Shown here in pieces: positions 13,151 to 16,959 of a stretch of DNA of 50,490 nucleotides (its first letter is position 1; each line of letters starts with the position of its first letter). Source of the stretch: a virus. Location: positions 1 to 50,490 of IMG/VR virus record IMGVR_UViG_3300018067_000002; one strand, 5' to 3'. Made by a program: the position numbers and the translations under genes. The notes under the pieces were generated by a model. It worked only from the letters and a program-made list of their open reading frames with translations, was not told where the DNA came from and ran no database searches.

Positions 13151-13978
13151 ATGGCTAAGCTACGTGGCTCTATTTGGATTAACGACAACCAGTTCTGCTA
13201 CATCGATGAATATGATCGAGAGTGGCGCTGGATAGGTCAACCAGTCGGTCCAACTGGTCCTTTAGTTCCAGGATCATTTTGGATGGAGTTAGACGATATC
13301 CGCTACGTGAATCAGGCTGGTAATTATGTCTATCAAATTATTGGACCAGTAATTCAGAATCATCCTACTGCACTTCGTGGTTCAATTTGGATCTCTCAAG
13401 GCTTCTTTCGATGGATTGATCGTTCTAGTAATGAGCGAGTAGCACATCAGGATGTGACCCATACCGATGGTGCTGGTGGACATTTAGACGTTCCTCACAC
13501 TGATACTGGACATGGTGACACTCATACCGATGGAACTCATGGAGACGTCCACACTGACGTTCCTCATAGTGACTTTCATGGTGATGGACATACTGATGTT
13601 CCTCATAGTGATCGTCCTCATACTGATACACACAGCGATGGGTCAATTCATAATGACCAACCAAACTATCACTTTGATTTTAATGACACAATACATAATG
13701 ATGGGGCTGGACATAGTGATATAAATGCACACGGTGACGGTGGAATTCAACACAATGATCACTATGATACTCATAACGATATAATTCATCTTGACGCACC
13801 TACAGTTATTGACCACAACGATCAAGCACATCAAGATTCTCCCGCTCAGGTCGGTCATATAGATTCCTCTCATGGGGATACGCATTCAGATGCTCCACCT
13901 ATAAGCGTCCCGCACCAGGATCACACAGATGCCTCATCAGGCGCGCATCAAGACAATCCTCAGTATATTGGACCATGA
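13151..13978 (+). CDS. His-x-Asp repeat tail protein, probable substrate of the radical SAM enzyme
   Basis: The protein has 275 residues and two parts. Residues 4-96 hold three related beta units of about 36 residues: LRGSIWINDNQFCYID, VPGSFWMELDDIRYVN and LRGSIWISQGFFRWID. Residues 99-268 hold 31 copies of H-x-D, mostly spaced 3-9 residues, often as VPHxD or HxDxHxD, with x being T, G, S, N, Q, L, Y, F or I. There are no Cys in this tail. The stop overlaps the radical SAM start (ATGA), so the two are co-translated. Position after two fibre genes and the fibre-like repeats suggest a structural tail component. The HxD array is metal-chelating in character. I infer it is modified by the next gene's product, as in His-Xaa-Ser systems. 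Confidence 0.75.
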   Translation: MAKLRGSIWINDNQFCYIDEYDREWRWIGQPVGPTGPLVPGSFWMELDDIRYVNQAGNYVYQIIGPVIQNHPTALRGSIWISQGFFRWIDRSSNERVAHQDVTHTDGAGGHLDVPHTDTGHGDTHTDGTHGDVHTDVPHSDFHGDGHTDVPHSDRPHTDTHSDGSIHNDQPNYHFDFNDTIHNDGAGHSDINAHGDGGIQHNDHYDTHNDIIHLDAPTVIDHNDQAHQDSPAQVGHIDSSHGDTHSDAPPISVPHQDHTDASSGAHQDNPQYIGP

Positions 13979-15234
13979 CTATAGAATATTTGCCTGTCGG
14001 CATCGCGTGCAATCTCGGTTGCACTTACTGTTACCAAGATCCTATGAGGGATGCTGGCAATATCAATGTGCCTCGTAATTGGGAACGTGTTAAGGAGCAG
14101 TTGCTTGCCTATGGGAGCAGCTTCTCTGTTTTTGGAGGCGAGCCGTTACTTGCATCTATTGAGCACCTAGAAGAGGTTTGGAAATTTGGATACGAACGTT
14201 TTGGTCAGAATGGAATACAGACAAATGGATCTCTTATTACTGATGCGCATATTGAGCTTTTCAAAAAGTATCAGGTCGGTGTTGGTATATCTATTGATGG
14301 CCCTGGAGTTCTCAACAGTGCTCGTAGCTGCGGTATTGATACTCCAGCTGCTACTGACAGAACCCTGTTCGCTATTAGAAGACTGTGCGACGCTGGGATA
14401 CCTCCTTCCTTAATTATCACTATCCATCCGATCAATGCTGGTGGTGACAGACTGTTAGAGCTACTAGCATGGCTCGATAGCATGGAGAAGATCGGAATCC
14501 AATATATCAACTTTCATATCCTCGAGGTCGAGAAAGGCAAAGAGGATATGATGTTTACTGTGGAAGAAAATACAGACGTCTTTACTCGCCTCTATCTGTG
14601 GTCGAAGGCATCGAAGATGCGAGTTGAGCCGTTCTGTGACATCCGGTCTTTACTGACGGAGATACATCCACATGTCTCTTGTGTTTGGAACCATTGTGAT
14701 CCTGCTACGACGGCCGCTGTCCAGGGTATCGGCCCTGATGGGACGCGCAGCAACTGTGGTAGGACTAACAAGGACGGTGTTAATTGGGTTAAAGGGGATA
14801 CACCGGGTTTCGAGCGCTATCTCCTCTTGCGCCAGACGCCCCAAGAAGTTGGAGGTTGTAAAGGTTGCTCCTTCTTCATTTTTTGTAAAGGACAGTGTCC
14901 TGGAACTGCTATCGACGGAGACTGGCGAAACAGAACAAGAGACTGCAAGACGTGGTATGCACTCTTTGAACGAATTGAAATAGACGTCGTTCGAGACGGT
15001 CTTGTTCCAATTTCGTTAAATTGTTCTCTTAAGTCTGAAATAGAAGACGACCTTGTAAGACAGTGGTCAGGCGAAAACGCTCATCATGCAGACGTTCCGC
15101 ATGGTGACGTTCCTCATGGAGACGATCACGGAGACTCTCCTCACGGAGATGGACACTACGATACGAATCCAAAGCCGAGACAAGGTATTCCAGGAGTATG
15201 GCTAGATGAACCGCCTAAACTTTTCTCTTCCTGA
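13975..15234 (+). CDS. Radical SAM/SPASM maturase with a C-terminal HxD tail
   Basis: The 419-residue enzyme has the 4Fe-4S SAM-binding motif C12-x3-C16-x2-C19 (CNLGCTYCY) and the GGEP motif at 54-57. Eight further Cys (236, 241, 261, 295, 298, 304, 308, 324) form a SPASM-type auxiliary cluster region, including CKGCSFFIFCKGQCPG. SPASM enzymes commonly modify peptides by radical chemistry. Residues 371-396 carry six H-x-D motifs in PHGD form, very like the preceding protein, so the enzyme bears a substrate-like tail. The start overlaps the upstream stop by 4 bp. A SAM methyltransferase fusion is encoded next, overlapping by 29 bp. The substrate is inferred from adjacency and the shared repeat. 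Confidence 0.85.
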   Translation: MTIEYLPVGIACNLGCTYCYQDPMRDAGNINVPRNWERVKEQLLAYGSSFSVFGGEPLLASIEHLEEVWKFGYERFGQNGIQTNGSLITDAHIELFKKYQVGVGISIDGPGVLNSARSCGIDTPAATDRTLFAIRRLCDAGIPPSLIITIHPINAGGDRLLELLAWLDSMEKIGIQYINFHILEVEKGKEDMMFTVEENTDVFTRLYLWSKASKMRVEPFCDIRSLLTEIHPHVSCVWNHCDPATTAAVQGIGPDGTRSNCGRTNKDGVNWVKGDTPGFERYLLLRQTPQEVGGCKGCSFFIFCKGQCPGTAIDGDWRNRTRDCKTWYALFERIEIDVVRDGLVPISLNCSLKSEIEDDLVRQWSGENAHHADVPHGDVPHGDDHGDSPHGDGHYDTNPKPRQGIPGVWLDEPPKLFSS

Positions 15235-16561
15235 GTTCACTCGTATTATTTGGTCTTCTACAAAAGCACGAGCTACTTGGAAGCCAAGGATCGACGCAAT
15301 CAATAATGTCTGGCCTGAGATAGAGCGCGCCACAGTTTCTACGCAGATGCGACCTGGAGGCTTACAGTCGATTGCTCCTGAGAACTTACTGACGTTCCAA
15401 GCGAATTGCTTCAACGCGCACATGCAATACGCTATCGTCGGTCGAGAGGGCACGAGCCCAGTTTACGGTAACGCTTCACAGCCTGTCCAAGACGACAAGC
15501 CGTGGCACTACCGAGTCTACTTTGGCACAGATCCAAAGACGTTTCTACAAGAGTGGGCAGAGGGAAACCAGCTACGGATCGGAGACTTCCTCGGGTATCC
15601 TCGTTGCTGTTCGGAGTTCTTTCAGTCATGTTGGGTTAATGATGGCTGGAGAGATCTGACGTATCCGATGATGAGAAACAGCCAGAACAATGGACCATAC
15701 ACCTGTAATATCTTACTTAGACATATTGGTGTTCGTCCTGTGTTTCATCTCCCTTGCAGCTTTAATTGCGATTCTACTGGACATATTGGAGAGGAAATAA
15801 TCGAGTGCGCGTGCCAGATGGGTTTCGACATCGAAATGAGTTGGCTGAAGAACATTCTCAGTTGGCCTATTCGATGGTCGTCCATGCATGGAGTTGCTAT
15901 AATAACTACGCCGGTTGTAAAGATCATCACGTCTTCCGATGCACTAGAGGGCCGTGTAGACTTGGACAGACCGGGTAACAGCTACCCGGAGGAAGGAGCT
16001 TCAGGAAACGAGTTCCCTTTCTCCCAGGTTCCCATGTCACTATTAGAAGGAATTCGGGATACGTGGACTGACAACGGCTTCGGGTCCTTTTCAGCTATGC
16101 GAAAGGCGCACGGCTTGGTGCTGAGGACGATTTCGACGATCTACTTGGATAGTGGTAGGATTATCGATCTCGGTTGTGGCAACGGTATCCTACTTGAACG
16201 TATACATAAAGAGCATCCGCATCTGATTCCTTACGGAGTCGAATACGAGTCAGGAGCATATTCGAGAGCAAGAGAACGTATCGGAGAAGAGATTTGGTTT
16301 TACGACCTCTACGATACGGACAAATACTTGCAAGAGAACTTTCAGATTGCTATCATTTCTTTGAACCGTTTCAAGGAGATCGATGAAGAGAAGTCTGAGA
16401 TATTTCTCAAGCATCTTCGTAATCATGTCAATTTCTTAGTGGTATACTCCTATGAAGACTGGAAGCCAGATTTGGACAATCTTCTTTCTCACCACTTTCA
16501 TATGGTGGGTGTTGAAACAAATGAGGATTCTGAAGTAAGAATATTCAGACCGAGAAGCTAG
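15206..16561 (+). CDS. Cys-rich GYPxCC domain fused to a SAM-dependent methyltransferase
   Basis: The product has 451 residues. The N-terminal part contains LRIGDFLGYPRCCSEFF (about 123-139), the G-Y-P-x-C-C signature seen in DUF483-like proteins, followed by HLPCSFNCDSTGH (181-193) with more metal-type Cys and His. The C-terminal part from about 290 is a Rossmann methyltransferase: RIIDLGCGNGILLERIH (318-334) is motif I and YGVEYE is the acidic strand 2 end. ATG 15206 has AGGAG upstream and lies inside the radical SAM gene. It probably adds a second modification to the same target; this is inference. Confidence 0.72.
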   Translation: MNRLNFSLPEFTRIIWSSTKARATWKPRIDAINNVWPEIERATVSTQMRPGGLQSIAPENLLTFQANCFNAHMQYAIVGREGTSPVYGNASQPVQDDKPWHYRVYFGTDPKTFLQEWAEGNQLRIGDFLGYPRCCSEFFQSCWVNDGWRDLTYPMMRNSQNNGPYTCNILLRHIGVRPVFHLPCSFNCDSTGHIGEEIIECACQMGFDIEMSWLKNILSWPIRWSSMHGVAIITTPVVKIITSSDALEGRVDLDRPGNSYPEEGASGNEFPFSQVPMSLLEGIRDTWTDNGFGSFSAMRKAHGLVLRTISTIYLDSGRIIDLGCGNGILLERIHKEHPHLIPYGVEYESGAYSRARERIGEEIWFYDLYDTDKYLQENFQIAIISLNRFKEIDEEKSEIFLKHLRNHVNFLVVYSYEDWKPDLDNLLSHHFHMVGVETNEDSEVRIFRPRS

Positions 16562-16578
16562 CCGTTCACCCGATGAAC
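16561..16578. repeat. Dispersed 18-bp palindromic motif, copy 2 (start of acetyltransferase gene)
   Basis: GCCGTTCACCCGATGAAC begins on the last base of the methyltransferase stop codon and includes the ATG of the next gene at 16573. No ordinary ribosome site is visible there, so the element could influence translation or bind a regulator. Confidence 0.5.
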
Positions 16579-16959
16579 ACCTTGCGCGCCTATCAGCCGT
16601 CAGATCTTGCTGCTATCAGTAAGATTTGGGAAGACCATCACTCGTCCTTTTACGGTTTGCCAGATCGTAGGGCTGCTGTTATTGACGCCGTCGTCGAAAA
16701 CGATGGCAAGATCATAGGCTACGGACAGGTCAGACTGTTTGCTGAAGCTATGCTCTTTCTTGATATGGACGCGCCTCTGCGGTCAAGGATACAGGCGTTA
16801 CAACAGTTGATGCGTGAGGCTTTTCGTGGGACAGAACGTGCTGGTCTACGAGAGATTTACGCATTTATTCAAGACCCTGACTTCTCCTTATTAATGCAAA
16901 AGCATTTCCATTTTGTGGCAGCCGACAAACCCGGTGAGCTGCTCGTAAAGGAGCTATGA
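16573..16959 (+). CDS. GNAT-like N-acetyltransferase (probable)
   Basis: The 128 residues follow the GNAT order: MNTLRAYQPSDLAAISKIWE (strand 1, helix 1), VIDAVVENDGKIIGYGQVRL (strands 2-3), FLDMDAPLRSRIQALQQLMR (strand 4, helix 3) and GLREIYAFIQDPDFSLLMQKHFHF (strand 5, helix 4). The R/Q-x-x-G-x-G/A acetyl-CoA loop is weak, so cofactor binding is uncertain. It ends as an ATGA overlap with the next gene and forms one transcription unit with the radical SAM cassette, suggesting a third modifying step, or a head/tail maturation role. Confidence 0.6.
   Translation: MNTLRAYQPSDLAAISKIWEDHHSSFYGLPDRRAAVIDAVVENDGKIIGYGQVRLFAEAMLFLDMDAPLRSRIQALQQLMREAFRGTERAGLREIYAFIQDPDFSLLMQKHFHFVAADKPGELLVKEL

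Follow-up and report, generated by a model that had tools for sequence, protein, structure and literature searches.

A phage gene cassette predicted to crosslink aromatic-x-Asp/Asn arrays of a tail protein by radical SAM chemistry

The window analysed here, i.e. the whole of a 50,490-base virus contig (IMG/VR record IMGVR_UViG_3300018067_000002), carries a cassette of four genes encoding a protein with a long array of His-x-Asp (HxD) motifs, a radical S-adenosylmethionine (SAM) enzyme with a SPASM domain, a DUF483-type domain fused to a methyltransferase and a small fourth protein. We consider it fairly probable that this cassette is a phage counterpart of the units producing ribosomally synthesized and post-translationally modified peptides (RiPPs), which would install crosslinks between residues i and i+2 along an array on the virion tail and would need the DUF483 partner to do so. 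The parts of this proposal differ in strength. Judged from sequence, the enzyme very likely acts on the array. Location of the array on the virion is quite likely, and the product is likely to be an i/i+2 carbon crosslink, by analogy to characterised enzymes. A role of the array in adsorption is put forward tentatively, stability or protease resistance being equally possible. The cassette and its parts are as follows:

13151–13978, + strand: gene 1, HxD-array protein of 275 amino acids (aa) with 31 HxD motifs, the presumed radical SAM substrate (list of open reading frames (ORFs), motif count, homologues beside the enzyme in most relatives).
13151–13444, + strand: N-terminal domain of gene 1 (residues 1–98) with three GSxWxEG-type repeats (AlphaFold2 (AF2) predicted local distance difference test score (pLDDT) >90 for residues 1–100; repeats in the alignment).
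13445–13954, + strand: HxD array (residues 99–268), the presumed modification site (motif counts; predicted unstructured, pLDDT ~48).
13955–13975, + strand: C-terminal strand (QYIGP), conserved in related array proteins (strand residues 271–274, block pLDDT 94; alignment).
13975–15234, + strand: gene 2, radical SAM/SPASM enzyme of 419 aa, the presumed crosslinking enzyme (PF04055, invariant cysteines, nearest models are peptide crosslinkers).
15085–15162, + strand: C-terminal HxD tail of the enzyme with six motifs, residues 371–396 (motif count; similar tails in relatives).
15206–16561, + strand: gene 3, DUF483-type domain (residues ~1–290, with GYPRCC at 15593–15610) fused to a class I methyltransferase (residues ~295–451).
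16573–16959, + strand: gene 4, a 128-aa protein, a lineage-specific accessory at most (without family or PDB match).

The cassette is located inside a structural gene run on the + strand, immediately after tail and tail-fibre genes. An original prediction, made from the letters of the window, had described a gene with 31 HxD motifs heading four ORFs; coordinates and motif count were both reproduced. It had also regarded all four genes as tied together by overlapping starts. This applies to genes 1 to 3, as genes 1 and 2 overlap by 4 bp (ATGA) and genes 2 and 3 by 29 bp, but not to the junction of genes 3 and 4, where a gap of 11 bp is present.

The first line of evidence is that array, enzyme and DUF483 protein occur together. 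An enzyme-based scan of viral contigs yielded 28 loci and a profile scan 79 loci, while 29 true family members (L033–L061), one archaeal assembly included, were found on genome contigs. Bacterial genomes and an archaeal assembly also carry the unit of array, enzyme and DUF483. Among cultured phages, close relatives are restricted to the Thermus phages Cumys, phiMa and phiLo, the five remaining matches being weaker (23–27% identity). Association was counted in those 39 non-redundant viral loci in which the enzyme is flanked by sequence on either side. Arrays are present in 37 of these loci, in 32 of them within 1 kb, and DUF483 in 38, whereas none of the 51 loci of distant radical SAM enzymes from the same search, which served as control, contained an array. 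This near-constant co-occurrence supports the earlier suggestion of a unit resembling peptide-modification systems; the pairing of radical SAM enzyme and repeat protein in it is conserved. In the reverse test, the viral collection was searched for DNA patterns of consecutive HxD codons, which are blind to the enzyme. After removal of low-complexity matches (DHDDMDHDD in L208, HADWP repeats in L217) by a motif filter with thresholds set after viewing, 95 contigs with a genuine array were obtained, and the enzyme was found on 81 of them. The 14 others are mostly short or carry the array near the contig end. The original prediction had named regular occurrence of HxD proteins in phages without any radical SAM gene as an observation that would refute its reading; in this search of the viral collection, pairing was the rule and exceptions were few.

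The array itself is under strong constraint at the protein level. In 20,000 shuffles of the 275-aa protein the number of HxD motifs averaged 4.5 and did not exceed 13, as compared to 31 observed, and the array segment shuffled by itself averaged 6.0 motifs, with 17 as the highest count. Each of the 31 array His residues has Asp at position +2. We rejected chance as well as a DNA-level tandem repeat as origin of the array, because Tandem Repeats Finder detects only short imperfect stretches and the differences in His and Asp codons are nearly all synonymous. Between related array genes, nonsynonymous changes affect 3% of the His codons and 4% of the Asp codons as compared to 37% of the codons for the middle residue (X2) and 31% of the spacer codons, in a comparison that somewhat favours low His/Asp change, as classes were assigned from one sequence per pair and pairs are partly non-independent. 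Low AF2 confidence in this segment is as expected for a segment that would be ordered by crosslinks, and one possible reading of the model is a loop whose two ends are fixed to the N-terminal domain. For the latter, Foldseek found no significant fold match in the PDB, the best hit having an E-value of 0.038 (propeller, choline-binding-type repeats).

The grammar of the motif points to the type of chemistry. In 91 non-redundant proteins, Asp stands at +2 after His 2352 times and Asn 231 times, any other residue being rare, in a count that is partly circular as arrays were delimited by HxD. Ser at this position was found 5 times versus 261 expected. When Asp occupies +2, only Tyr, Trp and Phe besides His reach expectation at the first position, while non-aromatic residues amount to 0–0.32 of it. 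Pro is avoided both at X2 (0 versus 98 expected) and after Asp (5 versus 94 expected). Loci with FxN, HxN and WxN motifs were found via the enzyme alone and are therefore independent of the HxD delimitation. The array protein of L018 (2908–3945) shares the N-terminal domain (E 3e-10) and has 37 FxN and just 6 HxD motifs. The same type of N-terminal domain precedes 38 FxN plus many FxQ and FxS motifs in L169 (8196–9986) and 16 HxN motifs in L022 (9178–9864), and the array of L061 mixes WxN, YxD and HxD. In Fulvivirga marina (L045, 6841–9975), the gene immediately preceding that of the enzyme encodes a 1044-aa protein that terminates in HIK repeats (HxK x7), possibly a Lys variant of the motif. 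On these sequences, the rule is aromatic-x-Asp/Asn, wider than the HxD repeat by which the array had originally been defined.

Gene 2 has the properties expected for a radical SAM/SPASM enzyme, as had been predicted. It matches PF04055 above cut-off (E=2e-13), and its CxxxCxxC motif (C12, C16, C19) is invariant in 21 aligned sequences. The full SPASM cysteine set is present in the pattern C-x(9-15)-G-x4-C ... C-x2-C-x5-C-x3-C ... C, whose residues C241, G256, C261, C295, C298, C304, C308 and C324 are likewise invariant in the 21 sequences. The closest NCBIfam models are AmcB, DynA, anaerobic sulfatase maturase, DarW, YhhB and GrrM/OscB, i.e. mostly cyclophane formers or peptide crosslinkers, while anaerobic sulfatase maturases and ChlB are the nearest PDB sequences. 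A known NCBIfam identity was rejected, all scores being far under the cut-offs (YhhB: 56 bits, cut-off 445; GrrM/OscB: 48 bits, cut-off 310). The six HxD motifs at the end of the enzyme had escaped the original prediction. Tails with at least three motifs are present in 48 of 86 non-redundant relatives and comprise up to 24 motifs, such long tails occurring among L176, L177, L178, L173 and L333. In a phylogenetic tree of the enzyme, whose root is unsafe due to long outgroup branches, gain or loss of the tail took place repeatedly; the majority of the cellular members group together, and five divergent members mix virus and cell. Two radical SAM genes of the family stand side by side in L173, L178, L333 and the L176 contig.

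The DUF483 protein is the second, nearly constant companion, being present in 80 of the 86 non-redundant loci of the enzyme family. PF04467 (DUF483) matches 14 of 20 relatives at E<=0.001, and the protein of the window weakly and below cut-off (E=0.061). Since the motifs GYPxCC and HxPCxxxC are near-invariant in these proteins, DUF483 looks like a metal- or Fe-S-binding domain, and it is probably a partner required alongside the enzyme. The view of gene 3 as a GYPxCC/methyltransferase fusion holds, with GYPxCC representing the motif of DUF483 relatives and the second part having a methyltransferase fold. The structure model is confident for DUF483 (mean pLDDT 94). Foldseek matches to methyltransferases reach E-values down to 5e-9, the PDB matches listed (best 50 of 811 at E<=0.001) are methyltransferases, and the C-terminal half also yields Pfam and PDB sequence matches to such enzymes. 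Relatives carry DUF483 with or without a methyltransferase domain, the two often being fused. Fused radical SAM-DUF483 proteins are common in cellular loci, several of which (L041, L042, L049 and others) possess extra radical SAM genes near the family enzyme. In one viral contig (L184/L230) the frames for enzyme and DUF483 are in pieces and an array ORF is still present.

Triceptide enzymes, i.e. three-residue cyclophane-forming enzymes (3-CyFEs) such as XncB, OscB/GrrM, MscB, YxdB, HaaB and YhhB, connect the side chain of an aromatic residue i with the C-beta of the residue at i+2 (PMC11002830). The linkages reported are Trp-Asp/Asn, Phe-Asn, Phe-Ser, Tyr-Asp, His-Ala and His-Arg, the His link being His(C2)-C-beta (PMC11002830). 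As the motif types observed here fit this rule, and as a metal site would not withstand the substitutions seen and an imidazole-N bond cannot be general (see below), we infer an i/i+2 crosslink. According to our model, the enzyme would act on many, if not all, of the 31 HxD motifs and form three-residue cyclophanes from the Omega1 aromatic ring to the C-beta of X3, here His and Asp, the simplest bond being C2(His)-C-beta(Asp). The DUF483 domain would work together with the enzyme, and the methyltransferase domain could contribute a further, optional modification. Through the crosslinks, a segment rich in His and Asp that is otherwise disordered would become a rigid, protease-resistant array presented on the tail. 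Such an array would probably serve host attachment or the stability of the virion, a benefit on which we can only speculate. Like triceptide systems, the cassette places a SPASM radical SAM enzyme beside a substrate with aromatic-x-X3 motifs. Triceptide substrates in PMC11002830 are precursor peptides, whereas the arrays belong to long phage proteins with tens of motifs, and the DUF483 partner, the motif tails on the enzyme and scores far under the curated cut-offs further separate the two. The dynobactin and darobactin maturases DynA, DarE and DarW, which are among the nearest profile matches and crosslink aromatic residues to other side chains in peptides (PMC11002830 for DynE/DarE), act on antibiotic precursors with few crosslinks; their models score the enzyme at 31–78 bits, the cut-offs being 450–650.

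Several observations weigh against the proposal. Action of the enzyme on the array is predicted from sequence, and the grammar count carries the circularity mentioned above. The substrate is a long protein and does not resemble a short leader-core peptide. No curated NCBIfam cut-off is reached by the enzyme, AmcB being the best with 81 bits versus 425. A recognisable array was found in just 15 of 26 loci of bacterial members. Finally, a few phages with arrays show no gene for the enzyme in the available sequence. The array is well inside the contig both in L206 (L334/L335; 64 kb), which has no radical SAM gene and a DUF483 gene ~24 kb away, and in L322 (L336; 46 kb), which has neither, and arrays without an enzyme of their own may exist.

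Could the enzyme modify the array in another way? An imidazole-N to C-beta bond of the dynobactin His-Tyr type, or epimerisation or desaturation at Asp, might be envisaged, together with modification of Asp or His by the methyltransferase. DynA ranks with the closest NCBIfam models, and DUF483 often has a methyltransferase domain fused to it. However, FxN arrays have no ring nitrogen, and an imidazole-N bond can therefore not be general, and the strict requirement for an aromatic residue at i-2 would be unexpected for epimerisation or desaturation of Asp. We regard such chemistry as unlikely.

The place of the array in the phage was addressed by the domains to which it is attached. Irrespective of what precedes it, the array nearly always forms the end of the protein. 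In the window, Cumys and phiMa it comes after the GSxWxEG three-repeat domain, elsewhere it belongs to LamG proteins of 1050–1180 aa (PF13385, E down to 1e-18), and other carriers match virion-structural or unknown phage families. Array proteins of relatives reach 1471 aa, and cellular carriers are either small ORFs (62–109 aa in some loci) or proteins of 900–1400 aa. Because of the tail-gene context and the fusion of arrays to lectin-type and other structural proteins, a virion tail component is the most likely substrate, in agreement with the original prediction. Alternatively, the modified protein could be a secreted or intracellular peptide product acting outside the virion, e.g. as an effector targeting the host or competing phages. 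Some cellular relatives are small array peptides (L043, L044) or proteins whose N-termini are Tat-like (L033, L036), and placement on the virion relies on gene context and fusions. This alternative appears rather unlikely to us, as in the window and in Cumys and phiMa the array gene comes after tail-fibre or baseplate genes, and arrays are found at the C-terminus of LamG proteins of ~1050–1180 aa or of proteins matching virion-structural families. A contractile-injection-system origin of the bacterial homologues, considered in view of the list of hosts, obtained no support from the Pfam content of the neighbourhoods.

That the array binds metal through its His and Asp residues, the enzyme merely helping to load the metal or acting unrelatedly, is improbable. 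Phage T4 gp37 carries an iron-bearing HxH tip, His and Asp are good ligands, and both are very strictly kept in the array. Yet the same enzyme family is found beside FxN (L018, L169), HxN (L022), WxN/YxD (L061) and HIK (L045) arrays, which are mostly poor ligand sets or none, and metal binding leaves the radical SAM/SPASM enzyme and its HxD tails unexplained. As a general function, a metal site would not tolerate the replacement of His by Phe or of Asp by Lys. The idea of metal-loaded HxD arrays as the conserved purpose, raised in the original prediction, is thus not supported, given relatives that keep the enzyme and have Phe in place of His (FxN) or Asn in place of Asp.

Kolesnik et al. 2024 (PMC11437467) described a radical SAM-DUF483 module with one unknown protein in Cumys, phiMa and prophages, and proposed a role in DNA modification. 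This is the same module as in the window: the enzymes are 49–50% identical, a DUF483 protein is present, which unlike gene 3 lacks the methyltransferase domain, and the neighbouring unknown protein of Cumys is an array protein with 54 HxD motifs. Modification of phage DNA with an incidental repeat protein is suggested by homologues reported near deazapurine DNA-modification genes in cyanobacteria (PMC11437467), but is very improbable given the near-constant array neighbour, the motif tails on the enzyme, the position in a structural gene run and the peptide crosslinkers as closest relatives; repeats are not mentioned in PMC11437467. In phiLo (L338), the adjoining proteins phiLo_136 and phiLo_137, annotated as hypothetical, contain 101 and 72 HxD motifs and are encoded a few kb from the radical SAM gene.

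Gene 4 is outside the module core. Its designation as GNAT-like could not be upheld, as searches of Pfam, NCBIfam and PDB sequences gave no match to the 128-aa protein. Homologues are confined to close relatives of the window, and because they are encoded ~2 kb away from gene 3 in L004–L006, this small conserved protein may have a role of its own. Gene 4 overlaps the next gene by 4 bp. The contig further encodes portal, major head, tail, primase, DNA polymerase, helicase and terminase proteins; no tRNA genes were detected in its 50,490 bases.

His-Xaa-Ser (Hxs) systems consist of a repeat protein with His every few residues and two radical SAM genes. The cassette differs from them by an HxD/N rather than HxS repeat and by DUF483 rather than a second radical SAM gene, and no Hxs model is among the 25 listed NCBIfam matches of the enzyme. 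We know of no earlier case in which a radical SAM enzyme matures a structural protein of the virion. The openly available literature, subscription journals being outside the search, gave no account of HxD arrays or of a radical SAM-modified phage tail. In marine pelagimyophages, two host-recognition clusters are reported to differ by radical SAM cassettes (PMC7029224), which are similarly located in the tail-fibre region and might be related; no substrate is named there.

Taken together, the novelty would lie in the apparent application of a known, cyclophane-type chemistry to long arrays in structural proteins of phages. Chances are about even that many phages build poly-cyclophane tail arrays with dozens to ~100 bonds per chain, by an enzyme that often carries and perhaps modifies its own copy of the motif and with a DUF483 partner of new function. 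If our proposal is true, radical SAM crosslinking would extend from small bacterial peptides to viral structural proteins, cyclophane enzymes would have very long natural substrates, and DUF483 would gain a context. A likely substrate would be named for the orphan module of cultured Thermus phages, and the assumption of DNA modification would be corrected. Cumys, phiMa and phiLo all infect T. thermophilus HB8, which makes the module directly testable.

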